A stretch of DNA of 30,491 nt from a virus: positions 1 to 30,491 of IMG/VR virus record IMGVR_UViG_3300010354_000373; one strand, given 5' to 3'. Positions within the stretch are counted from its first letter, which is position 1. Each line of letters begins with the position of its first letter. The position numbers were made by a program, and so were the translations under genes. Shown here in pieces: positions 1 through 27,214 of this stretch. A model generated the notes under the pieces. It did not search any database. It saw only the letters and a list, made by a program, of their open reading frames with translations, and was not told the origin of the DNA.

Positions 1-664
1 CACAGAAGTGATACACGTAGGCTTTGTCCATGGTAGGCCCGAGTAGTTCACCCGCTGTCCCCGCGTGGACGGCGTTCCACTTCGTGTCCAACTTTTGCAG
101 CGGGATCACTCCGTGGTTGCAGAGTATCGAGAGGATGGTCTGGTCGGACAGGCCGGTGAACTCGAAGCCGACCGTCTTCCCCCACTTCAGCACCTCTTTG
201 AACCATGGCTCTGCGAGCATTGGGTTGTAGAGCATGAACCCGCCGTTGACGTAGTCCTCGACACGCGGTGGGATCATCTGCATGCGAGCGGCCCAGAATC
301 CGACGTTGACACAGAACCCACCCCAGTTGCCGCACAGTGGCCACTGCCATCGTGCCGGAAAATCACCGAACTCAGGCTGCCACTCGGGCACCATGCCGAG
401 TTTTGTGTGGTCCCACTCTAGGAAGGGGCTCGGTGCGTCGTGCCGAATCTTCACGTCGGCGTCCAACTGGAGTATCCCGTCAAACCCCTTGTACGTCGTG
501 CCGGCGTGGACGAACTTGTTGAACCACTTGCACCTTGCCTTGATCCAGTTCTTGTTGATCTCGTGGTATTCGCACCCCCACCGCTCCGCCGCAGCCTGGA
601 TACTGTCGCGGGCGTCGGGGTCCAGGAACCCACCGATGTTCAGGACCGATATTGCGTACTTCAT
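1..664 (-). CDS. GT8-like glycosyltransferase, 3' end cut by window edge
   Basis: An open frame starts at the ATG at 664-662, which overlaps the TGA of the upstream gene (ATGA), and runs without a stop to base 1, giving 221 visible codons. The N-terminus MKYAISVLNIGG closely resembles the start of the neighbouring GT8-methyltransferase protein. Both carry a DAD motif at residues 68-70 (QLDADVKI here), the metal/nucleotide-sugar DxD of GT-A glycosyltransferases. Further on are YVNGGFMLYNP, the substrate-side NGG motif of GT8 enzymes, and a YHF motif near the cut end. Inference: it adds a sugar from a nucleotide donor in the cytoplasm and is a paralogue of its neighbour. Whether a methyltransferase domain follows cannot be seen. 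The plus-strand frames here are shadows. The GT-A call is strong; donor and acceptor are unknown. Confidence 0.8.
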   Translation of the reverse strand, partial: MKYAISVLNIGGFLDPDARDSIQAAAERWGCEYHEINKNWIKARCKWFNKFVHAGTTYKGFDGILQLDADVKIRHDAPSPFLEWDHTKLGMVPEWQPEFGDFPARWQWPLCGNWGGFCVNVGFWAARMQMIPPRVEDYVNGGFMLYNPMLAEPWFKEVLKWGKTVGFEFTGLSDQTILSILCNHGVIPLQKLDTKWNAVHAGTAGELLGPTMDKAYVYHFC

Positions 665-1875
665 ATTTTCACCCACCATGTTTTTCCTTCACCTGGAGAC
701 GCCCGCTTACCGAACCTCTCGTCGACCGCCTGCTTCACGCCCCACTTCGCCGCCCACTTCGGAGGTGCCTTGTAGTCATGTCCTCCGAGCCACCCGCCAG
801 GCTTGACCTTCGGCATCCAAGCCTCGATGTCTGCCTTCACGGCATCGTACGTGTGGTCAGCGTCGATGAATACGACGTCGCACGACTCGTCCGCCACTTT
901 CTTTGCCGCTTCGGTGGACAGGCTGTTCAAGACCCGCAGTTCGTCTACAGGGTACTGCGACACGAGGTGCATGGCCCTCGCGTAGTTCGCATCGTACACG
1001 CTCTGAGCGAGCCCCCCGTAGAGGTCGTTCTCTTTCGAGTACGAAGGCAGATGCTTGCCCCATGTGTCGACGAGGATGAGCGTCCCGATGTTGGCCCTCG
1101 CCAGCACGTTGCACGCGTTGTCCCCTCGCCAGACTCCGACCTCGCAGAACGTGCCGCCGTCCGGTATCCGCGAGGAGCACTCATCGCACTCCTGCTTCCA
1201 CCAGTCGACGCCGTTTATCCTCTTCTGCCGACGCTCCTGCCCCGTGAAGTGGTAGATGTAGTCGTTCATCCTCCACGTTGTCAGTTGCGGCCTGAAGTAC
1301 GTCGCCGCACCGACGGCGTTGAATGTGTGTGGGAGCCATGTTTGCGGGCACTTCTTGTTCCAGAGCAGCACCGACATGCTCGCCTGCTCCGGGAGGAACT
1401 TGCTCGTGAATCCCTGGCTCTCTCCGACCGCCCTGCACTCTGCCCACAACTTCGAGTGGTGCTTTGGGGAGTACAGGAAGAACCCGCCGTTCAGGTGCTT
1501 CTCGTCGGGGCATGCCTGCATACCCATGACCTTGGCCCAGTGCCCGACGCACTTCTGCCGGTGGTGGATGATCGGGCCGTTCTCGAACTGCCTGGCCGAC
1601 ACCACCCCGAAGGAGTCTACGGGGACGAGGTCGAACGGGCTCGGGCAGTCCCAGCGAATCATCATGTCGGCGTCTAGTTGCACGACGCGATCGTACTTCT
1701 CGAGGTGGTCGCAGACAAAGGTCTTTTGCCAGAAGTGGTGGACGCCCTCCTTGAGTGGATCGCGAATCTCTACGAGGTCGCACCCCCAGTTGTACGCTGC
1801 GGTACGGAATGAGTGCTTGGCCTTCACGGAGAGGCTCCGGCCACCGATGTTCAGAACTGCGATTGCCTTCTTCAC
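661..1875 (-). CDS. Fused GT8-like glycosyltransferase and SAM methyltransferase
   Basis: 404 residues with a GTG start, whose first bases overlap the upstream stop (GTGA), so translation is probably coupled. Residues 1 to about 215 are a GT-A domain of GT8 type: QLDADMMI with DxD at 68-70, HLNGGFFLYSP at 127-137 and YHF at 208-210. Residues about 235-404 are a class I SAM methyltransferase of the Methyltransf_24 type: CEVGVWRGD (motif I, 244-252), LVDTWG with an acidic D270, VVFIDADHTYD at 334-344 and GGHDY at 364-368. Inference: one polypeptide transfers a sugar and methylates that sugar or a neighbouring one. Domain assignments are motif-based; the acceptor is unknown. It sits between a GT25-sulfotransferase fusion and another GT8 gene, so it is part of a glycan-building set. 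Confidence 0.85.
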   Translation of the reverse strand: MKKAIAVLNIGGRSLSVKAKHSFRTAAYNWGCDLVEIRDPLKEGVHHFWQKTFVCDHLEKYDRVVQLDADMMIRWDCPSPFDLVPVDSFGVVSARQFENGPIIHHRQKCVGHWAKVMGMQACPDEKHLNGGFFLYSPKHHSKLWAECRAVGESQGFTSKFLPEQASMSVLLWNKKCPQTWLPHTFNAVGAATYFRPQLTTWRMNDYIYHFTGQERRQKRINGVDWWKQECDECSSRIPDGGTFCEVGVWRGDNACNVLARANIGTLILVDTWGKHLPSYSKENDLYGGLAQSVYDANYARAMHLVSQYPVDELRVLNSLSTEAAKKVADESCDVVFIDADHTYDAVKADIEAWMPKVKPGGWLGGHDYKAPPKWAAKWGVKQAVDERFGKRASPGEGKTWWVKI

Positions 1876-3173
1876 TGCTTCACTTCCTTCCGCACGTGGT
1901 TTATTGCGTCTTCGTACTGCTCATCGGTCGGCGTCAGGCCGAGCCATTCAATGAGCCCGTCTACGATCACTTTCGGGTTTGTCATTAGGGTGTCGAAGTC
2001 GACGTTGAACACGTGCGACTCGTCCATGTCCCTGAGGAACGCTTCCTTCTCTTCGTGGAGCCACTCCTGCACCTCCCGGCACTTGTCAGGCGGCTGGTCC
2101 AGCCATCCCTTGCAGACTGCCGACCTTCGGTTCAGGCTGTCGATGGAGTCCTCGAGCGGGCGAACACAGTTGACGACACGGAGCCTCTTGCCACACGTCC
2201 TCTTGAGGATGTCCCCCATCGCACAGAGGTGCGGGTACTTTCCTCCGACCATGTGGTCACCGGCACGACGCCATCGGCCGCGTATCCACTCGCCGAGGCG
2301 TTTCTGGGCGTGCCCCTTGTCCTTGATGCCAACGGTAGGGAACTTGGCGACCCCTTCGCAGATACGCGACAGGCCGACCGCCTCTCCGCCACCTCCGTTG
2401 CGGCCCTCGTACCCGCTGAGTTTGTCGCCCATGCTGACGCCGAGTTTGTGGAGGATCATCGCGGTGGCAGACGACCCCGAGCGGTGTACGCCCATGACTG
2501 CGACGAACGGACGTTCTTGGGCGGGCTCGCCAGGCTTCCGCATGGTCCACCATCTTTCCTTGACGGCCTTGCCGCACACGTCGCTATGCCCGTCCTCGGC
2601 CTGGCCGCAGACCCACTCGACGGGTGCATACACGTTGATGCGTCCGCTGCCGTGCAGTCGCCCCATGTGGTGGTCGATGTGGTGCCTGTTGTGCCAGTCG
2701 TTCGTCGTGTGGAGCCACTTGTAGAGTTTCCTGATGCCCAGCCCGCGGACACCGTACGCGTGCGTGCGGTTGATGTTGAGGCACCGCACCCAATGCTCGG
2801 TGATTTCCTGGGGGCGTCTGAGGTGCTGCCCGCCGAAGTAGATCTGCTCCCAGTCGTCCGGGACGTTCTCCATGAACGCGGCCACCCTGGCGGAGAAGTC
2901 GTCGGTGAACGTGGCGTCGTCCTCGAAGATCAGGACGCTATCGATCCCGTCGAGAAGGGCGTCTTCGAGTATCCGACAGTGTGAGCGATAGCAGCCCCAC
3001 GCCCCGCCGCCCTGCCGCCACCACTCTGGGTGCTTACACTTCTTCCCGTCGATCGCCCGGTACATCTCCGGCTGGGTGAACGGGAAGTCCGCTGGGATAC
3101 GCTGCTTGAAAGACTGCTCTCTGTCCGTGCGACGGTCGAGCGACACGCACACGACCCGGTCGAAGTTGAACAT
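1872..3173 (-). CDS. Fused GT25-like glycosyltransferase and sulfotransferase
   Basis: 433 residues. Residues 1 to about 215 look like a family GT25 (LPS/collagen-type) glycosyltransferase: the opening strand DRVVCVSLDRRTDR, the AWGCYRSH segment at 58-65 that is typical just before the acidic motif, and FEDDA with EDD at 84-86. From about residue 222 a sulfotransferase domain begins. VMGVHRSGSS (226-235) is the PAPS 5'-phosphosulfate loop, and RVVNCVRPLEDSIDS (332-346) fits the 3'-phosphate-binding segment with R338 and S343/S346. Inference: it attaches a sugar and a sulfate to the same glycan. The start follows a TATAAT-type promoter within the end of the preceding gene, with GAGG six bases before the ATG. 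Each family is well known separately; I do not recall this fusion as a standard phage gene. Confidence 0.82.
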   Translation of the reverse strand: MFNFDRVVCVSLDRRTDREQSFKQRIPADFPFTQPEMYRAIDGKKCKHPEWWRQGGGAWGCYRSHCRILEDALLDGIDSVLIFEDDATFTDDFSARVAAFMENVPDDWEQIYFGGQHLRRPQEITEHWVRCLNINRTHAYGVRGLGIRKLYKWLHTTNDWHNRHHIDHHMGRLHGSGRINVYAPVEWVCGQAEDGHSDVCGKAVKERWWTMRKPGEPAQERPFVAVMGVHRSGSSATAMILHKLGVSMGDKLSGYEGRNGGGGEAVGLSRICEGVAKFPTVGIKDKGHAQKRLGEWIRGRWRRAGDHMVGGKYPHLCAMGDILKRTCGKRLRVVNCVRPLEDSIDSLNRRSAVCKGWLDQPPDKCREVQEWLHEEKEAFLRDMDESHVFNVDFDTLMTNPKVIVDGLIEWLGLTPTDEQYEDAINHVRKEVKQ

Positions 3174-3175
3174 TG

Positions 3176-3592
3176 CTACCTCGCTTTCGCAAGCATTATA
3201 GCACGACGCACAAGCATCCTTCCGGCAGTCCGGAAAAATGGCAGGCGTCTCTTTCTCGCTTCCTCCTGTAACCAGTCAACGACCGTTTCGATGTTTTCTT
3301 CGGCCCACTGTGGACCCATCCTGTCGAGGTACGCGGCCCTCTTCGTACAGGAGCAATGCTGCGTCGCCCTGATGCCGAACTTTGCGAGCAGTGCCTTGAG
3401 GTGCCCGCCCACTCCGGACGTCGGCTTCTCAGTCTTCCACCTCGGGTAGGCGGGGTGCGTCTCGTCGACGCCGTAGACCGTCCCGCTCTTCTCAGTCTCT
3501 TGGATCGACACCACGCACGCCATGCACTCGGTCAGATCGTAGCCCCTTGTGGTGACGACGTCCTCGAATGCTTTCTTGGGGCAGTGAATCAT
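3176..3592 (-). CDS. Conserved-looking protein of unknown function
   Basis: 138 residues from the ATG at 3592, which overlaps the stop of the poly-Ser gene as ATGA. An in-frame ATG 27 bases upstream at 3619 would lie inside that gene and is less likely. The middle holds GGHLKALLAKFGI, then a Cys pair in HCSCTKRAAYLDRMG and a helical, basic C-terminus with alternating Arg and hydrophobic residues. I do not recognise a family with certainty. The Cys and His residues could bind a metal, but this is not shown. It sits between the Ser-rich virion proteins and the glycan enzymes, so it may belong to either group. Confidence 0.7.
   Translation of the reverse strand: MIHCPKKAFEDVVTTRGYDLTECMACVVSIQETEKSGTVYGVDETHPAYPRWKTEKPTSGVGGHLKALLAKFGIRATQHCSCTKRAAYLDRMGPQWAEENIETVVDWLQEEARKRRLPFFRTAGRMLVRRAIMLAKAR
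3195..3203 (-). promoter_or_regulatory. Extended -10 promoter for the glycan-enzyme run
   Basis: Read leftward the sequence is TGC-TATAAT, a perfect -10 hexamer with the extended TGn element. It lies inside the end of the 138-residue gene, about 22 bases before the ATG at 3173. No convincing -35 is visible, as is common for extended -10 promoters. It would give the glycosyltransferase-sulfotransferase gene and its coupled neighbours their own transcript. Confidence 0.55.
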
Positions 3593-3909
3593 GGCATCTC
3601 GTAGCAGTTCGTGAACCACGTCGTCGGGCCAGGTGGGTCTGGAGCGAAGTCAGGCTCGGCACATGAGCAACCTGGGCTGCATGAGTTGAAAAGCAAGACC
3701 CACTCTGTCCACTGCCCGAACGGTCCTCGCTCCCACCCGCAGCCGTTCTCGTTGCACAGCACAGGGGCAGTGCCGCTCCCTGAGTCCGACGACGAACTGC
3801 TCGCGGACGAACTGCTCGAGGACGAACTGCTCGAGGATGAACTGCTCGACGACGAACTGCTCGACGACGAACTGCTCGACGACTTCGATGATCCGTATGT
3901 TGGCGGCAT
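3589..3909 (-). CDS. Poly-serine protein with Cys/Trp-rich C-terminal module
   Basis: 106 residues. After MPPTYGSSK comes an almost unbroken run of about 30 serines, then DSGSGTAP and a compact Cys/Trp-rich module holding CNENGCGW, WTEWVL and a SCSPGCSC cluster, ending in a Pro-rich tail. The poly-Ser tract is encoded by a 15-base tandem repeat. The start codon overlaps the previous stop (TAATG), so it is coupled to the 378-residue gene, which also has a long Ser-rich linker. Function is unknown. It is likely virion-associated because of its place behind the tail genes. A poly-Ser tract next to glycosyltransferase genes makes it a candidate acceptor for O-linked sugars (inference). The module's Cys spacing suggests disulfides or metal binding. 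Confidence 0.75.
   Translation of the reverse strand: MPPTYGSSKSSSSSSSSSSSSSSSSSSSSSSSSSSASSSSSDSGSGTAPVLCNENGCGWERGPFGQWTEWVLLFNSCSPGCSCAEPDFAPDPPGPTTWFTNCYEMP
3791..3880 (-). repeat. 15-base tandem repeat encoding poly-Ser
   Basis: Six head-to-tail copies of a 15-base unit, gacgaactgctcgac on the plus strand, with only one or two substitutions in some copies. Each copy encodes five serines on the minus strand using mixed TCG, TCC, AGC and AGT codons. The tidy unit length implies growth by slippage or unequal exchange, so the number of serines may vary between relatives. Confidence 0.9.
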
Positions 3910-5045
3910 TAGGCTTCGTAGGCTGAGTTGATGAACCGCTCGTTCTGGATGAACTGCCTCTCGGTACGCGGCGTGAACCGGTCACCGAGGAATCCGCGTC
4001 GAATCGCTGACAGTCTCAGTGTAACTGTCAACTCAACGGACGGGTCCGGGTCAGCGAACTTCAACTCAACGTGGTCGTCGACGAACAGGGCACCGATCAC
4101 AACCGGCTCGCTCGGGCATGCCGAGACCACCGACATCGTCTCGACCTCGCAGACTTCGAGGAAGCGGGGGTCCACTGGAATGCAAGCGTACTCCTGCTTC
4201 ACGCGGACGGTCATCACTTCGTCGAACCGAACGTCTGGCATCTCGGCGATGAAGAGGGCCGCGTACCCTGTGTCGGTCCACGAGGCCGGGACGATCGCCG
4301 TGCTCTTGCTACTGTCGGACCCCGGCGGGTGCGAGCCACCGGAATCAGACCCACCAGAGGAGCCACCGGAATCAGACCCGCCAGAGCCGGAGCGTGAGTC
4401 GGAGGCGGAGTATGACTCGGAGTATGACTCGGAGGTAGAGTACGAGTCGGAGGCAGAGTGCGAGGTCGAGTACGAGGTCGAGTGGGAGGAGTACGAGTCG
4501 GAGGAGGGCGGGTTGGACGACTGAGACGACTGAGACGACTGTGACGACTGAGACTCTGAGCCTGACGACGACGATCCCCCCGACGAGGACTCGCACGAGC
4601 ACCCCATCACGGTGACGAGACGCCAGAAGCCGTAGTCGCTCTGGCCGACAGTCATCGGGTCGAGCGTGTTCTCCTGGATCGCCTGCACGTGCGTGTGGGC
4701 GGGGAGTGGCGTGTCAGGCGGGTTGCCCACGCTGACGTTGTAGCGTCGGACAGCCTGGTCGACGTCATAGACCTTTTCAGTCCCATGCCCGTCCTGCCCG
4801 ATGTTGACGCCGCCGATACCGTCGTTGACGTCTGCAAAGTCGGCACAGTCCGGGTGGACGAGTGCCGCCTCCAGGGCTCTCGCACTACCGCATGGGGGCA
4901 ACTCCTCCGTGATGCGGAAGTAGACGGGGACATCGACGTCGCGGCCAGCGGCATCGGATGCCTGGGGTCCTACACCATGCTCGCTCGCGGAGTTGAGGAG
5001 CCTCCGCAGGTCGGTAGCAGTCTTCTCTGACAGCGAGTACTTCAT
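3909..5045 (-). CDS. Putative distal tail/virion protein with Ser-rich linker
   Basis: 378 residues, started by an ATG overlapping the previous stop (TAATG). It has three parts: an N-terminal globular region (1 to about 148), a linker of about 100 residues (roughly 150-249) that is about half serine with Gly, Tyr, Gln, Asp and Glu, and a C-terminal region (about 250-378) rich in beta-type sequence. The linker contains (QSS)n, SYSTS-like and GGSDS-like repeats. I recognise no enzyme motif. Position after the tape measure and one other tail gene suggests a tail-tip or baseplate component (inference). The linker could be a flexible spacer or a carrier of O-glycans made by the downstream enzymes. 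Confidence 0.7.
   Translation of the reverse strand: MKYSLSEKTATDLRRLLNSASEHGVGPQASDAAGRDVDVPVYFRITEELPPCGSARALEAALVHPDCADFADVNDGIGGVNIGQDGHGTEKVYDVDQAVRRYNVSVGNPPDTPLPAHTHVQAIQENTLDPMTVGQSDYGFWRLVTVMGCSCESSSGGSSSSGSESQSSQSSQSSQSSNPPSSDSYSSHSTSYSTSHSASDSYSTSESYSESYSASDSRSGSGGSDSGGSSGGSDSGGSHPPGSDSSKSTAIVPASWTDTGYAALFIAEMPDVRFDEVMTVRVKQEYACIPVDPRFLEVCEVETMSVVSACPSEPVVIGALFVDDHVELKFADPDPSVELTVTLRLSAIRRGFLGDRFTPRTERQFIQNERFINSAYEA
4337..4551 (-). repeat. Short tandem repeats encoding the Ser-rich linker
   Basis: Within the 378-residue gene are several repeat families. A 9-base unit, gacgactga, occurs four times at 4516-4551 and encodes Q-S-S. A degenerate stretch of gagtacgagtcggagg-like units follows between about 4390 and 4500. 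Near 4337-4393 an imperfect unit containing ccaccggaatcagaccc appears twice and encodes the GGSDS motif. The pattern matches a low-complexity linker grown by repeat expansion. Confidence 0.75.
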
Positions 5046-6163
5046 TAGTTCCTCAAGCCAAGGGTGACTTTGAAGTTGATCTCCTTGTGGAAACCACGTC
5101 GGTGTACGATTGGCCTCAGCGTGCTCTTCCGCGGGGAGCCGTCGAGGTTGACCGGTCTGGGCTCAGAGGCAGGGACTTGTGTGAAACCACCCTTCACGGC
5201 AGGGATCGTGACCATTGCTCTGGCGAGGGTGTTCTGCACCGTGCCGCCGCCGCCGTTCGGGTCGGCTGCCCAGAAGTACTGGCCGTTGATCGGCCCGCTG
5301 CCATCATTGACGCTCTTGATGGCTCCGTTCTTGTTGTGCTCGAGCGGGAACGCCGTCAACTCAAGGAACTGGTTCCCGGCGGCCGTGCTGCACCAAACGT
5401 TGCGGCTTGACAGTGGGACTGCCTTGTCCCAGCCGATATTGACGAGGGACTGGTTGTCGTTGTTGATTGTCGTGTTTGAGTTGATCATCTGGAAGTTTTC
5501 GCGATACGCGAACTCGTACGTCACGTTCCAGCCGGCGTAGGTCTGCAAGTTGTACGTCTCCACGGCAGGCTGTGCGTCGATGCCGCGGAAGAGGAGCGTG
5601 CGTGCGATCGCCGAGAACGACCCCGCAGTGAAGAGACCGTCGTTGACTGTCCCCACGTACTCACAATACCCGGCCGGATCGCTGGTCACGAACTGCTTCA
5701 CTCTCAGCACGGCAGTGGCTTGCGGCTTCTCGAGCCCGGTGACGATCTCGCCGTTTGGCGTTGTGGCGGTCGCCCAGCCACCGTTTGCGACCGGGTCAGC
5801 GATCCACGACTGAGTCGCAACGTAGTCGAGCCCGAACTGAAAGGAGTAGTTCGGTGGTCGCACGTCAGGCGGCTGCTGCTGCTGCTGCGGCCCGCTCGTG
5901 TTCGCAACGGTCTTGTAGGTGTACGTGAAGTTGCGTACGAGCCTCGACTCTCCTTCCGGCGAGTCGTCAATCGAGACGCATGTGCAGTTCGCGTCTCCGG
6001 GATACGGGGCACCGACGTAGATGCCAGTGACGTTCGGGAGAGAGTACCCCTCACTCGGACTGCTCTTGATGTACTTGAACTTTCGGATGTACGTGTCTGC
6101 CACGCCACCCGAGCGGCCGTCCCGAGATGAACCGCCTGTTGCTAACTCGTATAGAGTTCCCAT
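5045..6163 (-). CDS. Putative tail protein downstream of the tape measure
   Basis: 372 residues beginning two bases after the tape-measure stop. Residues 1 to about 85 contain Gly, Tyr and Cys (DANCTCVSIDD). A short Gln/Pro run (GPQQQQQPP) then leads into a long beta-rich domain with many Asn, Thr and aromatic residues, ending in a basic segment RKSTLRPIVHRRGFHKEINF. In siphoviruses this position is usually taken by the distal tail (Dit) or another tail-tip protein, but I cannot see a diagnostic motif, so the assignment rests on gene order. No signal peptide or membrane segment is seen. It is coupled to the next gene by a TAATG overlap. Confidence 0.65.
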   Translation of the reverse strand: MGTLYELATGGSSRDGRSGGVADTYIRKFKYIKSSPSEGYSLPNVTGIYVGAPYPGDANCTCVSIDDSPEGESRLVRNFTYTYKTVANTSGPQQQQQPPDVRPPNYSFQFGLDYVATQSWIADPVANGGWATATTPNGEIVTGLEKPQATAVLRVKQFVTSDPAGYCEYVGTVNDGLFTAGSFSAIARTLLFRGIDAQPAVETYNLQTYAGWNVTYEFAYRENFQMINSNTTINNDNQSLVNIGWDKAVPLSSRNVWCSTAAGNQFLELTAFPLEHNKNGAIKSVNDGSGPINGQYFWAADPNGGGGTVQNTLARAMVTIPAVKGGFTQVPASEPRPVNLDGSPRKSTLRPIVHRRGFHKEINFKVTLGLRN

Positions 6164-6165
6164 GC

Positions 6166-8661
6166 TTACAGTATCCCCTCGTTCTCAGCCTGTTGTACCA
6201 GTTCACCGAGCAGTGCCGACTGCTTCCGGAGTTCAACCAAGTCCGCGTTCTTCGCCGAGTCTTCGCCCGACACCAGTCTAGCATACTCCGCAGCACCGCC
6301 GGACGTGCTGACGTCCTGCATCTGCAAAGGAGACATATTGGCCCCCTGGAGCAGCGAGTTTTCGCGTGCGTTGGCTAGTTGCAGTATAGCCGGTGCGAAC
6401 TCCCTCATCATCATGGAGAGGGTCTCTTCGCGAGCCTGGTCGTCGGTGACGCCGTCGGTCTGCCTGGCACCGAGGTTGAACTTCCGTACGCCCTCCATTG
6501 CCCGCTCCGTGGAGAACATATCCGACTGCTCGTAGAACTGCTTCTTGGCCTCCTGCTCGCGATTGAACGCGTCGATCTGCATGTCGGCCAGGAGGTTGCG
6601 AGCCTTCTTCTCGTTGGCGGCGTCAGCCGCCGCTTGCCTCGCGGTCGCTGAGACGTTCTCCAACTCGCCGTTCAGACGCTCCATCTCCGCGGCGGCTTGC
6701 TGTGCATTTATAGCACCGCTGGAGAGTTGCTCCCAGACGTGGTCCATCTCCAAGCCGATGTCCTCGATCGTGGCGAGGTACTGCTCGGGGATCATGTCAC
6801 CGAACGCCTGTCCGACGATGCCGCTTACGCGATTCAGATCATCCTCGGCACCGCGGAAGGTCGGGATCATGTCACCGATCCCCTGTGACCTCAGCCAGGC
6901 TTCCCGTGCTTCTCGGTTCTGCCCGATCGTGGCGGCTCTCTCCCCTTGGTTGAACAGCCTACCAGCGGTGAACGTGCCTTCGAGGTTCTGATTCTGTGAG
7001 GCCCACCTCTCCAGGAACTCACGGACCATCTCGTCGAACATTTCAGCCGGGACTTGGTCCCGTAGTCCGATGATGTTGTCGAGTTGCCCGCTGAGATCCC
7101 ACATGCCGCTGAACTCGCCGCCGGCGGCGATGATGTCGTTGAACTCTCTGACGAACCCGTCGAAAAGTTGCGTCGCCGTGACCGACTCCTGCTCGAGCAA
7201 CTGTTCCTCGCGGGACGCGATGCGTGGCTGGAGCCCACGCTGCTCTTGCTGGAGTTGGCGGCGTCTCGCGAGCGTCGTTTCCGGCTTGGCCAACTCTTGC
7301 TCGATCTGCTCGTTGCGGGCTCGCAGCCTGCGGAGTTCAGGGTCGGCGATGCCGATATTCGCCCTGGCCTCCTGCTCCGCCGCGGCCTGGAAGTCTTCCG
7401 CTTCTTTGTTTGCGGCCAACTCCTTCTTTTGCTGCTCACTGAGACCAGCACCCCTGAGTGCCTCGCTGATTGACTTGATGACGTCGAGTTGCTTCTGGCG
7501 TGCGGCTACGAGTTTTTGCTCCTCTGCCGCGACGACCTTCGTCACCGCAGCACTGTCATTCAGGGCGTCCAGATGCTTCATGTACGAGGCGTACAACTGA
7601 AGCATCGCCCCCATGAGCACGCCGCCGATCAAGCCTGCCGTCCCGCCAGCGATCAAGCCGAACTGTGAGATATTATTGCCCATCGCACGGATCTTCGCGT
7701 CCAGGCCACCAGTGGCGGACTGGAAGTCGTCGAACGCGAAGGTCAACTGCTGGATCGCGAGACCGGCCTTCGTCCCCCACTGAGAGTTGATTGAACCCTC
7801 GGCGGACTGGTCCACCATGTTGCGGATGCCGCCGGGTGTCCGAAGGTTCCTGGCCCCGCCGCCTTGCGTGCGTGCCATCGTCGCTGCGAGTTTCTCGAAC
7901 TCTCGGCGAGTCTTCTCGACCTCAGCCCTGGCGGCGGCCAACTTCTTCGTGTCGACCGGGTCGACTGCGGCGGCCTTCGCCTGAGCCTTCGCCATCTTCT
8001 CGAAGGCTGACCTGAGCGGCTTATCGTTCTCGGCCTTGAGTTGCCGCAGGATGCGTCGATACGCCTCCATCTGCTTGATTGCGACAGAGAGGTCTTGTGC
8101 CTGGAACCACTCGTTGGTGCTTTTGCGGCTGAAGTCGTCCCGCAGCGACGCGGCAGTGCCAAGCCGTGCGTCTTGCTGCGAGATGCCGGCGACTGACGCA
8201 CCTACACCGGCGATGCCCTCTCGGAGAGCCTTGAGAGCCTTGGGGGAGACCTGTCCAGTGCGGACGAGAATGTCGTTCAGTTTCGTGAACGCGGCAGCGA
8301 TCTTGTCGATATCGGCATTGGCGGCGTTCTCCCCCTGCGACGTCATCATGCCCATGGCACGCTTGCGGAGTTCGACGATCTTCGCCGCCTCGGCTTCCAG
8401 TGCCTTGGTGTCAGCGAACGAGCGGAGAACCTCGGGCTTCACACCGGCCTGCATGCCGGCCTGGAGTTGCCGCTGAATCTTCTGCTGGGCAGTCCAGATG
8501 TTCTCGAACGAACTCTGGATACGCTTCGACGTGTTCTGAAACGACGAATCGAGAGACTTCGCGTACTTCGTGGCGTCCCCAGCAAAGCCCGCCAACTGCT
8601 GACGGGCTTCCTGGGTGTTCACCGAGATGACTGCGGAGATTTTACTGAGGTTGCGTGCCAT
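6166..8661 (-). CDS. Tail tape measure protein
   Basis: 831 residues, by far the longest tail gene, placed right after the chaperone pair with a 20-base overlap, as expected for a siphovirus tape measure. The first 300 residues are mostly helical and rich in Ala, Gln, Lys and Glu. A hydrophobic stretch beginning FGLIAGGTAGLIGG with LMGAML nearby could cross a membrane during DNA delivery. Long charged coiled-coil regions follow (ELRRLRARNEQIEQELA and similar), with Gln-rich helices to the end. At roughly 0.15 nm per residue, a known rule for tape measures, the tail would be about 120 nm. No lysozyme or peptidase domain is visible. The start is the ATG opening MARNLSKISAVISV. Confidence 0.9.
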   Translation of the reverse strand: MARNLSKISAVISVNTQEARQQLAGFAGDATKYAKSLDSSFQNTSKRIQSSFENIWTAQQKIQRQLQAGMQAGVKPEVLRSFADTKALEAEAAKIVELRKRAMGMMTSQGENAANADIDKIAAAFTKLNDILVRTGQVSPKALKALREGIAGVGASVAGISQQDARLGTAASLRDDFSRKSTNEWFQAQDLSVAIKQMEAYRRILRQLKAENDKPLRSAFEKMAKAQAKAAAVDPVDTKKLAAARAEVEKTRREFEKLAATMARTQGGGARNLRTPGGIRNMVDQSAEGSINSQWGTKAGLAIQQLTFAFDDFQSATGGLDAKIRAMGNNISQFGLIAGGTAGLIGGVLMGAMLQLYASYMKHLDALNDSAAVTKVVAAEEQKLVAARQKQLDVIKSISEALRGAGLSEQQKKELAANKEAEDFQAAAEQEARANIGIADPELRRLRARNEQIEQELAKPETTLARRRQLQQEQRGLQPRIASREEQLLEQESVTATQLFDGFVREFNDIIAAGGEFSGMWDLSGQLDNIIGLRDQVPAEMFDEMVREFLERWASQNQNLEGTFTAGRLFNQGERAATIGQNREAREAWLRSQGIGDMIPTFRGAEDDLNRVSGIVGQAFGDMIPEQYLATIEDIGLEMDHVWEQLSSGAINAQQAAAEMERLNGELENVSATARQAAADAANEKKARNLLADMQIDAFNREQEAKKQFYEQSDMFSTERAMEGVRKFNLGARQTDGVTDDQAREETLSMMMREFAPAILQLANARENSLLQGANMSPLQMQDVSTSGGAAEYARLVSGEDSAKNADLVELRKQSALLGELVQQAENEGIL

Positions 8662-8980
8662 CTGGGCCCTTTACTGCTTTCGCACCGCCGAGTTTCGCCA
8701 ACTCGGCAACCATGTCTTCTGCCGTCTGGCTCTGGCGTATCGCAGTTGGGATGAAGTCCTTCTCCTGAGGGACACGCTTGAAGTTGCCGCTGGCAGCACA
8801 GACAACGCGACAGAGCCGAGCCGTCTGCTGCCACCCGTCGTCGAGTGGCCATCGCTGGTGGTACGCGTACCACTCCGCGAGTTCCTCCGAGTCAACCTCC
8901 CTCAGCAACCTCTTGACCGACATGCCGAGCGTCTTCGCTAGTACGAAGTAGAATCTTCGCTCGGGCCGGTCCTCTAGTCT
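8642..8980 (-). CDS. GT-type frameshift extension of tail assembly chaperone
   Basis: This frame is entered by a -1 slip at the GGGAAAA heptamer at the end of the preceding gene. It then reads RLEDRPERRFYF, LAKTLG and on through SEELAEWYAYHQRWPL, to a stop at 8642. The SxEELAEWxAY...P pattern is typical of the T part of G/GT tail chaperones (lambda gpT, DUF4035-like). The frame contains an ATG at 8923, but the open coding sequence before it matches the family and no good ribosome site precedes that ATG, so it is better read as the C-terminal half of a 223-residue fusion. The product would help load the tape measure and recruit tail-tube subunits and is not expected in the finished tail. Confidence 0.8.
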   Translation of the reverse strand, partial: RLEDRPERRFYFVLAKTLGMSVKRLLREVDSEELAEWYAYHQRWPLDDGWQQTARLCRVVCAASGNFKRVPQEKDFIPTAIRQSQTAEDMVAELAKLGGAKAVKGPDGTQPQ

Positions 8981-9312
8981 TTTCCCAGTTCTTCGACGGC
9001 CTCGCCTGTAAATGCACTGTGGGCGAACGCCATGCCGAAGAGACGGTTGATCACCAGGCTGGACTTCCGGCCGAGTTCCTCAACGTCCGCGTCGGTAAAA
9101 AGCCGTCCGCCGTTCTCGTCGCACAACGAAGCAGCCAGGAAACGAATGCGGAAGTTTCCCAGTTCCTTGTCGCTGAACGACTGCTCGAACTTGTCTCTGT
9201 CTAAACCGCTGATGACACGCAAGCCGACCGAGCCGCCCCACTCGGGCACCTCTACGGTCTTGATCTTGATGTCGTCCGCGGCGAGGATCGCACCCTTTGA
9301 AAGCATACCCAT
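8974..9312 (-). CDS. Tail assembly chaperone (G-type)
   Basis: 112 residues. The layout fits siphovirus G-like chaperones: an N-terminal beta segment (KIKTVEVPEWGGSVGLRVI), then helices with RIRFLAASLCDENG, LFTDADVEELG and VINRLFGMAFAHS. It lies directly between the tail-tube genes and the tape measure, and its last codons CTG GGA AAA GAC TAG include a -1 slippery heptamer. Two products are therefore expected: the short form ending EELGKD and a 223-residue fusion with the downstream frame. Both act in the cytoplasm during tail assembly. The start used is ATG-GGT-ATG; the second ATG two codons on is also possible. Confidence 0.85.
   Translation of the reverse strand: MGMLSKGAILAADDIKIKTVEVPEWGGSVGLRVISGLDRDKFEQSFSDKELGNFRIRFLAASLCDENGGRLFTDADVEELGRKSSLVINRLFGMAFAHSAFTGEAVEELGKD
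8980..8986 (-). other. Programmed -1 frameshift site (GGGAAAA)
   Basis: Read leftward, G GGA AAA sits in the zero frame four codons before the chaperone stop and fits X XXY YYZ. It differs from the lambda G/GT site (GGGAAAG) only in the last base. Slipping back one base after AAA gives AGA CTA GAG and continues into the T-like frame with no stop until 8642. Frame, position and both protein families agree. Confidence 0.85.
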
Positions 9313-12089: not shown

Positions 12090-12821
12090 CTAGAAAGAGA
12101 TGTCTGTCGACGAGGCGAGCAGGACGTCGAGGGTGTACGGTACGGTGTTGTTCTGCGACGACAGGCCCGTGGTCACCGGCTCGCGGGCGGTGTACCAGTG
12201 GGCGACGAGCATCAGCACTGCGAGTTTGCACTGCGGGCTGGTGCTGAAGTACGTGCCGTTGGCGGAGGTGTAGTAGGTGAACCTGATGTAGGACGAGTCC
12301 GAGCCAGTGAACGTGTAGTCAGCCGGCCACGCACCAGACGTCGGCACGTACGGGGACGGGTTGGCGTCCGTTATGATGCCGAGCCCGCCTGTGCCGAGAG
12401 TGAGTATGTTCGTGCCGCCGTTGGTGGAGTTGTAGGAGATGAAGGTCTCCGACGGCAGCCCGTAGATCGTTGAGTTGGGGTACGGAGGGACGAGCGGATC
12501 CTTGCCGGGTGGGAATGACGAGTAGTACACAGTGTGCTTCGTGAGCCCGAGGCTCTTCCCCGTTCGCCCCGAGACGTAGTCCACCGCGGCGTTGATGTAC
12601 GCCTGAATGAGAGCGTCGTCGTCGCTGATGTCTACTCGGCAGTGCTGCTTCGCCTCTGCTAGGGTCACGATCGGGCTAGTGTCAGTCGTGAGCCCTCGAG
12701 TGCTCGAGGTCACTTTGACGTACGGCGTGACGCCGTAGAGGTAGTCAGAGCCGCCGCCGAGGACGGGGTCGTCTTTGCCGTTGCACCCACCGCAGTAGTA
12801 GTCGTCGCAGCAATCACACAT
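12090..12821 (-). CDS. Head-tail adaptor (gp6-like connector) with Cys-rich start
   Basis: 243 residues. The family core is clear: LAEAKQHCRVDISDDDALIQ (acidic loop after the first helix), then YINAAVDYVSGRTGKSL, and near the end LAVLMLVAHWYTARE with a VPYTLDVLL tail helix. This is the HK97 gp6 adaptor layout, forming a ring beneath the portal. Unusual is the N-terminus MCDCCDDYYCGGCNGKDDP, with five Cys in the first 13 residues, which could bind a metal or form disulfides. A beta-rich insertion lies in the middle (about 110-185), making the protein longer than usual. The start overlaps the preceding stop (TAATG). Confidence 0.8.
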   Translation of the reverse strand: MCDCCDDYYCGGCNGKDDPVLGGGSDYLYGVTPYVKVTSSTRGLTTDTSPIVTLAEAKQHCRVDISDDDALIQAYINAAVDYVSGRTGKSLGLTKHTVYYSSFPPGKDPLVPPYPNSTIYGLPSETFISYNSTNGGTNILTLGTGGLGIITDANPSPYVPTSGAWPADYTFTGSDSSYIRFTYYTSANGTYFSTSPQCKLAVLMLVAHWYTAREPVTTGLSSQNNTVPYTLDVLLASSTDISF

Positions 12822-13021
12822 TAGTCGCTTTTCCTCGTCCGCTTGGGCTTACTGACTGCCGTTTCGACTTTTTCTGGCGGGGCGACTGCTCGCTCCTCTT
12901 CGTAGACCTCGAGCATCCCCTTCTTGACGTAGTACCGCACGTCCAGACGGCGGATCTCAGCCGCATCCAGGATTTGACCGCGTCGGTGCCAGTGGAATGG
13001 AATCAGTACTCGGTATCGCAT
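12821..13021 (-). CDS. Small basic protein of unknown function
   Basis: 66 residues: RYRVLIPFHWHRRGQILDAA, then an IRRLDVRYYVKKGMLEVYEE helix-like segment, then a Lys/Arg-rich tail (KPKRTRKSD). The ATG is preceded by AAAGGAGAGG. It overlaps the adaptor gene by one base, so the two are coupled. Small proteins of this kind often precede the adaptor in siphoviruses, but I see no defined function. Confidence 0.65.
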   Translation of the reverse strand: MRYRVLIPFHWHRRGQILDAAEIRRLDVRYYVKKGMLEVYEEERAVAPPEKVETAVSKPKRTRKSD

Positions 13022-13030
13022 GCCTCTCCT

Positions 13031-13750
13031 TTATTGTAGCACGCCGTGAGCCTCGGGCGGTGCCGCACCACCCCAGAACTCATTCGGGTATTGGATCGTC
13101 TTGCCCGTGCCGGACGTCAGGGATGGCCACGTCACCATCAACTCAGCGTGCCCGACCGAGATGTTTGTCGCGACTCCCAGGCGGTTGCCGGCCTTCCGGA
13201 ACTGCTGCCAGAAGTGAATATCGTAGTCAATATGGTCTCCCCGCCAGCCACCGTCGTCCGCGGGGGTCGACAGAAACCACGGCTTCTTGGTCCGCTTGAG
13301 GGCGTCGGTGCGGATGACGGTACACCCGAAGTGTGCAGTGTCCGCCGGCTGGACCGGCTTCTTGAACCAGCCGTCGTCGACGGTTACCGTCTCCCCTGGG
13401 TTCACGCCAGGCTTCGAGAACATCACCGCATTCGACATCCGCTTCGACTGGAGCGGGGCGATGGCGTCATAGCCGGACTGGAGCAGTAGGGCAATCAGTG
13501 CCTCCACCGTCGAGGCCCGGAATACGCTGTCGTGGTCGACCGTCAGGATGACGTCGGAGTCCAGGCTGTCTTCCAGCCCTCCCTCCATGCACTGGTGCCA
13601 GAAGGCCCCCTGGACAATCGACGGGTGGATGCCCATCGCAGTGAGCGTTTGCGTCAGGGCCAGCACATTGTCGCTGAACATGAGGCGTGACACCGACATC
13701 ACGCACTTGACCTTCAGACCGGCAACTGCTCGCCCAACTTGCACGTCCAT
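13031..13750 (-). CDS. GT2-like glycosyltransferase in the head-gene cluster
   Basis: 239 residues. DVILTVDHDSVF with DHD at 72-74 is the GT-A metal/donor motif. A later acidic segment WRGDHIDYDIHFWQQ (169-183) and GVATNISVGH (H201) fit the acceptor-side acid and conserved His of GT2 enzymes. No membrane segment. It lies among head genes rather than with the glycan enzymes at the other end, so it could modify a capsid or tail protein. The leader has TAGGAGG, but that sequence lies in the 3' arm of an inverted repeat. Family confident, substrate unknown. Confidence 0.8.
   Translation of the reverse strand: MDVQVGRAVAGLKVKCVMSVSRLMFSDNVLALTQTLTAMGIHPSIVQGAFWHQCMEGGLEDSLDSDVILTVDHDSVFRASTVEALIALLLQSGYDAIAPLQSKRMSNAVMFSKPGVNPGETVTVDDGWFKKPVQPADTAHFGCTVIRTDALKRTKKPWFLSTPADDGGWRGDHIDYDIHFWQQFRKAGNRLGVATNISVGHAELMVTWPSLTSGTGKTIQYPNEFWGGAAPPEAHGVLQ
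13033..13041 (-). promoter_or_regulatory. Extended -10 element at gene junction
   Basis: TGC-TACAAT on the minus strand overlapping the TAA stop of the glycosyltransferase gene. It matches the window's recurrent element. The next ATG is only about 12 bases beyond the hexamer, so transcription would start inside the AAAGGAG site or give an almost leaderless message. It may be a chance match. Confidence 0.3.
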
Positions 13751-13757
13751 GCTGACC

Positions 13758-13774
13758 TCCTAGAGTGTCTAGGA
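13758..13774 (-). promoter_or_regulatory. Inverted repeat covering the glycosyltransferase ribosome site
   Basis: TCCTAGA and TCTAGGA form a perfect 7-base-pair hairpin with a 3-base loop between the HNH and glycosyltransferase genes. The 3' arm contains most of the TAGGAGG ribosome site, so pairing would hide it. The arms also span the stop of the upstream gene, so translating ribosomes could open it. Confidence 0.5.
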
Positions 13775-14077
13775 AAGTCTACCATGACGCTCAGAGAGAC
13801 ACTGGTATGTCACACGCTCGTTGACCTTCCGCCAGTTGCCGAGGTGTCCGACCCTGAAGTGGCAGTTGTGGCACATGGAGAGTAAGTTGTCGGGCTCCAA
13901 CTCGAGCGACGGGTCGACGTGGAATGGGACGATATGGTGGACCTCGATGTCATGGAACGACCCGCACGCGAAACACTGGGGGTGTTCCTCGACGTGAGCG
14001 TCCCTCACGGTACGCCACTGCGGGCTCCGTGGAGCACCGAACAGGTCGGGCTTGCGAAACCAGCCGAAAAGTTTCAT
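13769..14077 (-). CDS. HNH endonuclease
   Basis: 102 residues from the ATG at 14077, which has GGGAGGTGAGG in front; the upstream in-frame ATG at 14131 is less well placed. It has a CxxC at 35-38, the catalytic EVHHIV with H47/H48, N64 in EPDNLLSMC, and a second CxxC (69-72) plus H73/H78 that complete the zinc ribbon of the HNH fold. Small HNH nucleases of this kind lie beside packaging genes in many cos phages and act with terminase; others are homing enzymes. Here it is separated from the terminase by five genes, so either role is possible. Confidence 0.85.
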   Translation of the reverse strand: MKLFGWFRKPDLFGAPRSPQWRTVRDAHVEEHPQCFACGSFHDIEVHHIVPFHVDPSLELEPDNLLSMCHNCHFRVGHLGNWRKVNERVTYQCLSERHGRLS

Positions 14078-14144
14078 CGCCTCACCTCCCACCATCTGCC
14101 GAAATATTTTTGGGCATAGGTTCCGTAACACCCCCCCCGAAAAA

Positions 14145-14831
14145 TCATCGCGTCACCTCAGAGGCGTACTCCATTACTTCGAGCCTGGCGGTGCGAACGT
14201 CGATCGAGTCCTCGTCCACGTCTGTCGTGATGTCCCAGTTGCACACCACCACCCCTTGCAGGATCGTGCCCGGCTCGTCTGGGAGCGGCACGAAGAGGGC
14301 ATGCACGGTCGGGAAGTCTACGCCGCGGTGCTGCTCGAGCGGCTGCTTGCCGAAGGTCGGGTCGCCCTGCATGATCGCTGCGGCCACACGCATCGCGTCC
14401 CCCTCGTGGCCGAGGGCTGTCGAGATGAACGTGGTCCTGACGCCGGCCGTGCGGACAGCGTCAATCAGGGCACGGTCCCGACCGTCGACGGCGACGAGTT
14501 CGATCGTGTTAGCCTCGAGGTTGACCGCGTAGACCTGAACGGCGATGCACCCGAGGCGGTCGACCTTGTGCCACAAACGCGGCAGTGCCTCGGCGGCCTT
14601 CTGCACGTCCAAGTGAGGCCCGCGGTTCACGCTGACGATCTCTCTGACGATCTCATCTCGGTTCTGGTACGCCGTCCACGCTACGCCGATCACAAGAGCG
14701 GCGAGCGTGGCGATGGCAATGTCTTGCAACTTCCGCAGTGGCGGCTTGCTCATGAACCAGCCGATGGCCGTGGCGATGAGGGTGCCGCTGCTCACGGTTG
14801 GCTCGGGTGCTGGCTGGGGGGTATCAGGCAT
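14145..14831 (-). CDS. Membrane-anchored protein of unknown function
   Basis: 228 residues from the ATG at 14831, which has GGAG eight bases upstream. A Pro-rich N-terminus leads to one hydrophobic helix (IAIATLAALVIGVAWTA, about 38-54), preceded by a second weakly hydrophobic stretch. The soluble part (about 60-228) has alternating strands and helices with LFVPLPDEPGTILQGVVVCNW, which resembles the core strands of GAF-type sensor domains. That similarity is my impression only. The first basic residues lie before the helix, suggesting an N-in anchor. It is not clearly a holin or spanin. Confidence 0.55.
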   Translation of the reverse strand: MPDTPQPAPEPTVSSGTLIATAIGWFMSKPPLRKLQDIAIATLAALVIGVAWTAYQNRDEIVREIVSVNRGPHLDVQKAAEALPRLWHKVDRLGCIAVQVYAVNLEANTIELVAVDGRDRALIDAVRTAGVRTTFISTALGHEGDAMRVAAAIMQGDPTFGKQPLEQHRGVDFPTVHALFVPLPDEPGTILQGVVVCNWDITTDVDEDSIDVRTARLEVMEYASEVTR

Positions 14832-14850
14832 GCGAGGGTCTCCTACCCTC

Positions 14851-14859
14851 ATTCTAGCA
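14851..14859 (-). promoter_or_regulatory. Possible extended -10 promoter for membrane-protein gene
   Basis: TGC-TAGAAT on the minus strand, in the space between the PhoH-like and membrane-protein genes and about 20 bases before the ATG. No clear -35. It would give a short leader that still contains the GGAG ribosome site. Confidence 0.4.
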
Positions 14860-14862
14860 CGC

Positions 14863-15537
14863 CTATGCCTGCAACGCTCCCAGGACGGCTGCGATGATCT
14901 TGTTTCGCACAATGTCCTCGCCAGCCAACTCACAGACAGAGACGCCGGGGATGCCGCAGAGACGCTGGAGGCAGAAGTCGAGCCCGCCGGCCTGTCGGTA
15001 GTCGAGGTCGGTCTGCGAGGCGTCACCGTTCACCACCGCGGTCGAGCCGATGCCGATACGGGTCAGGAACATCTTGATCTGCTCGAGCGTGGCGTTCTGT
15101 GCCTCGTCGAGCAGCATGAAGGTATTGTGGAAGTTGCGGCCACGCATGTACTCCAGCGGGCACAGTTCGATGTTGGCTGCACCTCGCATCAGCCCGAAGT
15201 TGTCGAGCCCGAGGTACAACTTCATCTCCTCCATGACGGGGACGAGATACGGCATCACTTTCTCGGTCAACGTGCCAGGCAGGAACCCGAGCCCCTTGCC
15301 TGATTCGACGACTGGACGGGTGATGACGATCTTCTCGACCCTACCTTCCATCAGGTACTTGCAAGCCATGCCCACGGCGAGCGAGGTCTTGCCCGAGCCA
15401 GCGGGGCCGACACAGAACGTGATGTCGTTCTTGGTTATGGCTTCGAGATAGGCGGCTTGATTGGGTGACTTTGGCGAGAGTTGCTTCTTCGGTGGTTGCT
15501 GCGGCTTCAGTGGTGCTACCTTGCGTTTCTTCGCCAT
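14863..15537 (-). CDS. phoH: PhoH-like ATPase
   Basis: 224 residues. After a Lys/Pro-rich N-terminal tail (1-25), GPAGSGKT at 44-51 is the Walker A loop and FMLLDEAQN with D144/E145 is Walker B; ITRPVVESGKGLGFLPG between them is the highly conserved PhoH segment. PhoH-like proteins are common auxiliary genes in phages. They bind ATP and probably RNA or DNA, but their role in infection is not established. Here the gene lies between the major capsid and connector genes and has its own leader with promoter and TAGGAG ribosome site, so it may be expressed apart from the head genes. Confidence 0.9.
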   Translation of the reverse strand: MAKKRKVAPLKPQQPPKKQLSPKSPNQAAYLEAITKNDITFCVGPAGSGKTSLAVGMACKYLMEGRVEKIVITRPVVESGKGLGFLPGTLTEKVMPYLVPVMEEMKLYLGLDNFGLMRGAANIELCPLEYMRGRNFHNTFMLLDEAQNATLEQIKMFLTRIGIGSTAVVNGDASQTDLDYRQAGGLDFCLQRLCGIPGVSVCELAGEDIVRNKIIAAVLGALQA

Positions 15538-15576
15538 GTCAGGCTCCTAGAAGAGTAGTTGTCCGCCCATGCCTTT

Positions 15577-15582
15577 ATTGTA
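15577..15582 (-). promoter_or_regulatory. Promoter -10 for the PhoH gene and connector operon
   Basis: TACAAT on the minus strand (context GGG-TACAAT-AAAGG) in the space after the capsid terminator. The start of PhoH lies about 40 bases on, with TAGGAGCC before the ATG. A TTGCTT lies about 19 bases upstream and could be a poor -35. Position just after a terminator supports a restart of transcription. Confidence 0.5.
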
Positions 15583-15595
15583 CCCGGTCCCATGC

Positions 15596-15635
15596 CACAA
15601 AAAGCAAGAAGCCCCCAGGTTTCCCTGGAGGCTTC
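15596..15635 (-). terminator. Rho-independent terminator after the major capsid gene
   Basis: On the minus strand, a 12-base-pair stem (GAAGCCTCCAGG with CCTGGGGGCTTC, one G-U pair) closes a GAAA tetraloop and is followed by TTGCTTTTTG. It lies 28 bases after the capsid stop. The stem arms are at 15608-15619 and 15624-15635 on the plus strand. It would end the terminase-to-capsid transcript. Confidence 0.9.
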
Positions 15636-15662
15636 CGCTTTTCGTACTACAGAGACTCAGCC

Positions 15663-17027: not shown

Positions 17028-17080
17028 TCAAAAACCTCTTCTGGTTGAAGACTACCAGCGAGCCGCTGGCCGATATCTAT

Positions 17081-17089
17081 AGTGTAGCA
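17081..17089 (-). promoter_or_regulatory. Extended -10 promoter for the major capsid gene
   Basis: TGC-TACACT on the minus strand within the 85-base gap between protease and capsid genes, giving a leader of about 47 bases that contains AAGAGG before the ATG. Together with the downstream terminator it can make the capsid gene a separate transcription unit. No -35 is evident. Confidence 0.5.
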
Positions 17090-17112
17090 CAGTGCGAGAA
17101 GTCCGCGTCGCT

Positions 17113-17847
17113 TCAGGAGCCACGCAACTGCCCAATGAGTTCACGAACCTGACGATCTTTCTCGATCCGATCGAGCATCCTTACCGCGGCCTTGGCGGCG
17201 AGGGTCCGCTCGTCCACCGCAGGCTCCTCGGAGCGTGGCTCGGGGATCAGGGCGGCGTCCTCGGCCTCGATCTCCTCGGCGTCCGCGAGCACGGGGTGCT
17301 CACGCTGCTCGAACTCGGCCTTGGCGGCCTCGAGCGTGCGGGACGAGAGGTAGACCTTGTTGTCGGTCTCGGGATATGCCGGCGTGTGTACCACGCTCAC
17401 GTCCCCCAGGAACTCAATGTCGCTGATCGTCCGCACGGTCACGCCGTCGCTGCGACGCTCCCACTGGTCGCCACCCTTGGCGATACGGAAGGCGAAGGAC
17501 GATCCGCGGAGGTCGCCTCGCTCGAGGGCCTCCACAACATCGGCGTCGGCCTTCTTCGGGTGGATCACGTACTCGAGCCCACGCTCAGTCAGGCTGAGTT
17601 CTAGCGTGCCGCTGATCGACCGGCCGAGCACACGCTCGTGGTCCAACTTCGCGAACACGTCGAGTTTCGGGTCGGCCATCGCACGGTCGAAGGCACCGGG
17701 GAGGAGGACCTCCGTGAAGCCACCAAGGTCGCGGCTCTCGCTGTTGTAGAGGGCGGCCACGCCACGGATGACGGTCTTGCCGTTCTCGTCCGACCGCACT
17801 TCGAGGGTCGGTGCGGCTTCGACCATACGGATGTCAAGATCACTCAT
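17113..17847 (-). CDS. Prohead maturation protease (HK97 gp4-like)
   Basis: 244 residues from the ATG at 17847, which overlaps the portal stop by eight bases (ATGAGTGA). The open frame extends 59 codons further upstream into the portal gene, but that part is a shadow. Catalytic residues of the caudovirus prohead serine protease fit: H70 in AKLDHERVLGR, S117 in LRGSSFAF and E144 in SDIEFLGDVSVV, then HTPAYPE. The C-terminal 70 residues are acidic and helical, probably a scaffold-like tail. It cuts the delta domain from the capsid protein and then itself. Confidence 0.92.
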   Translation of the reverse strand: MSDLDIRMVEAAPTLEVRSDENGKTVIRGVAALYNSESRDLGGFTEVLLPGAFDRAMADPKLDVFAKLDHERVLGRSISGTLELSLTERGLEYVIHPKKADADVVEALERGDLRGSSFAFRIAKGGDQWERRSDGVTVRTISDIEFLGDVSVVHTPAYPETDNKVYLSSRTLEAAKAEFEQREHPVLADAEEIEAEDAALIPEPRSEEPAVDERTLAAKAAVRMLDRIEKDRQVRELIGQLRGS

Positions 17848-23787: not shown

Positions 23788-23797
23788 GTCTCTTGCC

Positions 23798-27197: not shown

Positions 27198-27214
27198 GCT
27201 TATTCTGCTCCGGG

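Follow-up and report, generated by a model that had tools for sequence, protein, structure and literature searches.

A candidate cassette for virion-protein glycosylation behind the tail genes of a siphovirus

We analyzed the IMG/VR contig IMGVR_UViG_3300010354_000373 (30,491 bases, without end repeats; "the window" hereafter) and found a cassette of genes at the end of its siphovirus structural block that encodes two serine-rich (Ser-rich) proteins, a small conserved protein (orf4) and three enzymes with glycosyltransferase (GT), sulfotransferase and methyltransferase domains. This is probably a virion-protein glycosylation cassette, whose enzymes would modify the serines of the phage's own tail. 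The evidence comprises the gene content and order, the recurrence of both in related loci, many of them in unrelated uncultured phages, matched swaps of linker and enzyme types, and intact catalytic motifs. Two features of phage virion-protein glycosylation are present: GT genes carried by the phage (GT25, and GT8 by homology) and a candidate acceptor encoded in the structural block, after the tail genes, with a fibre-head-like C-terminal domain. All window features described here are on the minus strand. The cassette is broken off at the contig end, and genes past base 1 lie outside our view.

Two Ser-rich proteins had been pointed out in an earlier note on this DNA, and both were recovered. 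The first, the Ser-linker tail protein (3909..5045, 378 amino acids), consists of an N-terminal domain ending in FW(R/K)..C.C, a linker of 95 residues that is 52% Ser (4308..4592), and a C-terminal "KSTAIVP" domain (3912..4310). The N-terminal domain was found at 18 loci, and in nearly all of them the Ser run begins right at its FW(R/K)..C.C end. An AlphaFold2 model of the KSTAIVP domain (predicted local distance difference test, pLDDT, 90.7) is a beta-sandwich with a C-terminal helix. Its best fold matches are C-terminal domains of phage tailspikes and pyocin fibres with Z of 5 to 7, the top VIA Z scores (7.0 and 6.8) being to the tailspike C-termini of Pam1 and Sf6. Tail-fibre-like proteins are among its matches to predicted viral structures; Foldseek against the PDB gave no significant match, and no match to the domain was found in cultured phages. 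With Z at most 7 the fold matches are moderately consistent with a fibre head, and we treat "fibre-head-like" as a lead. The Ser-linker protein probably belongs to the tail tip or to a fibre. The second Ser-rich protein (3589..3909, 106 amino acids) has an N-terminal YGSSKS motif, an unbroken run of 26 Ser and a Cys-rich C-terminus. The run uses five Ser codons (TCG, AGC, AGT, TCA and TCC) on a 15-bp minisatellite, and is therefore no simple trinucleotide run.

The earlier note had placed the enzymes directly after the Ser-rich proteins. The order holds, and a separate conserved gene that the note had not listed, orf4 (3176..3592, 138 amino acids), lies between them. Neighbors among the Ser-rich, orf4 and enzyme genes lie within a few bases of each other, overlapping or abutting. 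The first enzyme (1872..3173) fuses a GT25 domain (PF01755, E 1.2e-8, 35.5 bits against a cut-off of 24), with EDDA at residue 84, to a sulfotransferase domain. The latter matches PF13469 below the Pfam cut-off (E 3.7e-4, 21.2 against 27 bits), and we assigned it because it has an HRSGSS P-loop and is homologous, with 43% identity over 219 amino acids, to the same half of the fusion in locus L086. The whole fusion is 43.6% identical to that of L086 over 438 amino acids. It has 37 full-length viral relatives, 36 of which keep the H(R/S)SGSS P-loop. Among solved structures, the GT25 domain is closest to procollagen galactosyltransferase 1.

The second enzyme (661..1875) fuses a GT8-like domain to a Methyltransf_24 domain (PF13578, E 7.6e-19, 69 against 26.3 bits), and the same fusion follows the GT25-sulfotransferase in L131, L156 and L176. 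A viral scan with this protein matched its methyltransferase half only, in cyanophage-like contigs. The GT8-like domain has no direct match to PF01501 and was not called directly by any library scanned; it is 31% identical over 211 amino acids (E 4e-18) to a region of L074 that Pfam calls GT8, and the DAD and NGG motifs are kept. The third enzyme gene (2..679), open at the contig end, encodes a second GT8-like protein that is 35% identical to the preceding GT8-like domain (E 2e-24). Thus the three GT domains, one sulfotransferase and one methyltransferase first proposed are all present, GT25 and Methyltransf_24 firmly by Pfam, the sulfotransferase and GT8 through homologues and kept motifs. 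Single-protein viral scans of the GT25-sulfotransferase, tail5 (the tail protein encoded before the Ser-linker gene), terminase and orf4 with 8-residue patterns, which were too specific, gave no confirmed match.

Co-occurrence of Ser-rich proteins and enzymes, the check suggested in the earlier note, was evaluated in both directions. A viral scan with the KSTAIVP domain recovered 53 loci, each on its own contig, in 21 clusters at 75% identity. In nearly all 53, a Ser-rich or Ser/Asp/Gly linker stands right before KSTAIVP, on very different N-terminal parts. We examined 5 kb downstream of the 18 cluster representatives with downstream sequence, and a GT lies within ~5 kb in 16 of 18 compared with 1 of 18 upstream (Fisher p 6e-7, for clusters that here and in the reverse test share ancestry and are not phylogenetically independent, on contigs that are fragments). 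The two clusters without a downstream GT are L079, where the contig ends in the Ser-rich gene, and L084, with a GH130-like match alone. Among the 73 downstream proteins, Pfam identified GT25 ten times, as well as GT8, GT9, GT71-like, GT2, PLOD-type and stealth-type GTs, pyruvyl transferases, two sulfotransferase families and several methyltransferases. The 59 upstream proteins include one GT and are otherwise mostly tail genes. The enzyme families vary by locus (GT25, GT9, GT71, stealth-like, GT8 and GT2; Methyltransf_24 and FkbM; Sulfotransfer_2 and Sulfotransfer_3), and the classes recur.

The reverse scan, based on a GT25-sulfotransferase alignment and not conditioned on Ser, yielded 48 loci in 26 clusters, with 37 full-length fusions. 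We defined a Ser-rich open reading frame (ORF) as one with at least 16 Ser in 40 residues, within 5 kb of the enzyme. Of the 24 clusters with enough sequence, 23 have such an ORF upstream on the same strand and two have one on the opposite strand (p 4e-10); downstream of the enzyme the count is 4 of 20 (p 2e-7 against 23/24 upstream). Enzymes that regularly occur without a Ser-rich protein, the pattern named beforehand as contrary to the proposal, were not seen for the GT25-sulfotransferase, as the lone exception, L156, encodes a Ser-rich protein of 603 amino acids shortly after its GT8-methyltransferase gene, on the downstream side. Many GT25 loci share the gene order of the window, that is, tail5, the N-terminal domain with its Ser run, orf4 in some cases, the GT25-sulfotransferase, and GT8 with or without the methyltransferase.

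The type of linker changes with the type of enzyme. The GT25-sulfotransferase pairs with poly-Ser, the GT2-methyltransferase with poly-Thr, and GT2/GT4 with collagen-like repeats. Ten orf4 loci without Ser or Thr runs have only two or three GT proteins among 54. This matching favors an enzyme–acceptor relation over plain neighborhood, with L034 as a counter-example. It also bears on the idea that the glycan is built on other virion proteins (the tube, the capsid or tail5) and that the Ser runs are flexible spacers. Mycobacteriophage glycans are on the capsid and tail tube (as cited in PMC12619734 and PMC11256854), and Ser/Gly runs make good spacers. However, Ser makes up on average 71% of the densest 40-residue Ser windows, and Thr 1%, so Ser itself is kept, and a need for spacers explains neither this composition nor the poly-Thr and collagen-like matching. 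We therefore regard acceptors elsewhere in the virion as distinctly unlikely, and modification of the Ser-rich proteins as the better explanation.

The small protein orf4 recurs in these loci. It is defined by a "GxGxxLKxLL..CxC..RA..MD..GPxW" domain, and a search with the hand-made core pattern CxC..RA..MD..GP.W, for which all 21 viral matches were true homologues, found it in 21 viral contigs and one metagenome-assembled genome (MAG) of Gemmatales. It is present in 26 of the 48 GT25 loci. The domain is fused to the GT25-sulfotransferase in L160 and to the GT2-methyltransferase in L027, L028 and L037. At orf4 loci that encode a GT2-methyltransferase-orf4 fusion, poly-Thr replaces poly-Ser in the tail proteins, and these loci are the Thr counterpart of the Ser module. 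GT2, methyltransferase and orf4-domain fusions beside poly-Thr tail proteins with Cys-rich domains were observed in L027, L028, L030, L031 and L037. A structural model of orf4 (pLDDT 83) has no PDB match, and the HEPN identity hinted at by Pfam (E 0.04, below cut-off) was rejected on this ground.

A short motif accompanies the second Ser-rich protein. The 11-residue GSxKSxSSVSE occurs in 32 of 44 second Ser-rich ORFs (L074-L125), where residue shuffles predict 0.04; it is mostly found at residues 3-9 or close to the C-terminal end. The window version is YGSSKSSSSS (3880-3909), and the first residues of the head domain, GSDKSTAIVPA, are similar to the motif. Marine relatives have a shortened Ser run or none, and keep the motif beside GT25. 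The earlier proposal that the enzymes modify Ser is partly supported, by the co-occurrence and by the position of enzymes without transmembrane segments right behind virion genes. It needs amending in that a long poly-Ser run is not invariant, because marine relatives do without one and the GT2-methyltransferase relatives have poly-Thr.

Bacterial genomes contain related cassettes. Searching 392 Planctomycetota genomes for the KSTAIVP domain, we found it in four, and these four genomes are the whole basis of the host assignment. In the Gemmatales MAG (G022; L050), the run starts with a Ser-linker protein (C-terminal domain 51% identical to that of the window), a 555-amino-acid Ser-rich protein and orf4, followed by GT9, an FkbM methyltransferase, a mannosyltransferase-like GT and both ADP-heptose synthase halves. 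It also includes a P-loop protein, sulfotransferase-like in look, without a Pfam match. This cassette (12517-19770) keeps the order of the window and lies amid host genes on a chromosomal contig; the neighboring stretches that were read showed no phage structural gene. It is either what is left of a prophage or a cassette that the host has adopted. In the prophage of G242 (L068), connector and tail genes precede a Ser-linker protein (C-terminal domain 50% identical), a Ser-rich protein and a GT25-sulfotransferase that is 49% identical to that of the window and disrupted within its sulfotransferase half. In G387 a collagen-like linker replaces Ser, in a protein split over two contigs, and is followed by GT2 plus methyltransferase, GT4 and a 1321-amino-acid GT/methyltransferase protein. 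G288, also chromosomal, has a collagen-like linker with GT2 two genes off. Separately, ADP-heptose synthase halves (rfaE domains I and II) occur near Ser-rich/GT modules in L051 (4160-5668) and L110 (10192-11411), lineages that are unrelated, a bacterial MAG and a marine phage. An uncultured phage of 735 kb (L020; LR756501) also has, at 324-342 kb, a series of GT and methyltransferase genes with relatives of GT25 and Methyltransf_24 among them.

Several observations count against the reading that the enzymes modify the phage's own tail serines. In L034 a GT4 adjoins orf4 although no Ser- or Thr-rich run is present, and the ten orf4 loci without such runs do include two or three GT proteins among 54. 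In L085-type phages the GT9 is on the opposite strand, and in the marine group Ser near GT25 is just 12-20%. Moreover, Ser-rich tail-tip proteins and GTs could each have reasons of their own to come last in the tail block. A related reading takes the two gene types as chance or positional neighbors that collect at a hypervariable tail-block end; tail-tip ends do vary in gene content, and the shared ancestry of the clusters adds to its weight. The reverse test, the same-strand bias and the retention of the order in G022, away from any phage structural genes seen, all argue against it, and we consider mere position very unlikely as the explanation.

A further question is whether the substrate is the virion at all. 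The enzymes may remodel host surface glycans, in superinfection exclusion or serotype change, with the Ser-rich tail proteins as bystanders. Phage GTs are known to act in this way; members of GT25, GT8 and GT9 are found in lipopolysaccharide synthesis too, and the ADP-heptose genes of L051 and L110 fit lipopolysaccharide core sugars. However, none of the three window enzymes has a transmembrane segment, and the window matches include no Gtr-type gene (GtrA, GtrB), flippase or polymerase beside the cassette, inside which the contig ends. In addition, dozens of phages have the enzymes immediately after virion genes, linker type tracks enzyme type, and nearly every GT25 cluster has its Ser-rich ORF. 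Host-glycan remodeling is therefore rather unlikely, though it deserves more weight than the other alternatives. DNA-modifying glucosyltransferases that shield the phage genome were considered since two PHROG families matched by the GT25 domain are named "glucosyltransferase." This candidate was rejected as extremely improbable, because no modified-nucleotide synthesis gene adjoins the enzymes, and the sulfotransferase fusion and the similarity to procollagen galactosyltransferase point to proteins or glycans.

Glycosylation of the phage's own tail would most likely take place in the cytoplasm, given the lack of transmembrane segments, the collagen galactosyltransferase relative and the precedent of a cytosolic Ser glycosyltransferase. 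As we picture it, the Ser-linker protein would have its N-terminal domain on the tail and present a flexible Ser-rich stalk with a small beta-sandwich head, probably joined by the second Ser-rich protein. During assembly in the infected cell, the soluble GT25 and the two GT8 enzymes would transfer sugars to the stalk and/or the GSxKS serines, perhaps guided by orf4, and the fused sulfotransferase and methyltransferase would cap the glycan. The product may be a sulfated, methylated O-glycan covalently attached to a mucin-like, charged tail-tip stalk, which would extend and protect the tip and could alter binding; the benefit may thus be a shield or attachment.

The remainder of the window holds the structural block, with terminase, portal, protease, capsid, connectors, tail terminator and tail assembly chaperone. 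Cultured phages gave no nucleotide match to the window, whose terminase reaches 28% identity with its best matches. The tail assembly chaperone (8974-9312; phrog_344, E 1.2e-25) is followed by an 831-amino-acid protein (6166..8661) without a family match of its own, a tape-measure candidate by length and position. Next is tail5 (5045..6163), 27% identical over 376 amino acids to its homologue in L040, with others in G018, G004 and G007. Its homologues occur at 18 loci, mostly those that also have the Ser-linker N-terminal domain, and precede the Ser-rich gene in relatives. Within the head-connector block, a weakly matched GT2-like gene (13031-13750, E 0.0067) is beside an HNH endonuclease (13769-14131); its relatives are ~700 bases before methyltransferases in L005-L018. 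A PhoH-like ATPase gene (14863-15537; phrog_170, E 5e-65) also lies in the structural block, upstream of the connectors. Two long proteins (21739-24069 and 25023-27563) share a C-terminal match to phrog_22899, and 27215-28423 has a trypsin-like match slightly below the Pfam cut-off.

It is possible, though somewhat less likely than not, that the cassette belongs to a widespread modular system in which uncultured aquatic and planctomycete phages build mucin- or proteoglycan-like stalks (Ser, Thr or collagen-like) with matching enzymes, orf4 acting as an acceptor-recognition adaptor and GSxKSxSSVSE as a portable recognition or assembly tag. In the open-access literature we found nothing on point for phage GT25, sulfotransferase or Ser-rich tail glycosylation, and by that measure the module appears to be undescribed. 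Virion glycosylation by phage genes has so far been shown for few phages. If our reading is true, uncultured phages have a common, modular version with sulfate as a possible cap, which would explain the long Ser or Thr runs in their tail proteins. It could also yield acceptor–enzyme pairs and a candidate recognition motif, and the enzymes might serve to O-glycosylate Ser and to sulfate glycans in E. coli.

Parts of the proposed system resemble known ones. Ser-rich repeat adhesins also have a long Ser-rich stalk glycosylated by adjacent GTs, but they are bacterial, are exported by accessory Sec, have other GTs and are without a sulfotransferase. The collagen-type GT25 enzymes (human COLGALT1 and mimivirus R655) are the closest solved relatives of the window GT25 domain. 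Their acceptor is collagen, whereas the window linker is without a Gly-X-Y repeat, which the G387 and G288 relatives have. The autotransporter heptosyltransferases TibC/AAH are cytosolic and place many heptoses on Ser, not Thr, of a surface adhesin (PMC4358343). Some related phage cassettes likewise have GT9 and ADP-heptose synthesis, but the window enzymes are GT25 and GT8, not of the TibC family, and the acceptor would be a phage tail protein. The nearest parallel is with mycobacteriophages of the Che8 type, whose GTs glycosylate their own virion proteins (Freeman et al., 2023, as cited in PMC12619734 and PMC11256854). In both cases the GTs are phage-encoded and the acceptors are the phage's own virion proteins, here as predicted from the genes. 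The acceptors cited for mycobacteriophages are the capsid and tail tube C-termini, whereas the window combines Ser-rich tail-tip proteins with GT25-sulfotransferase and GT8-methyltransferase fusions and orf4.

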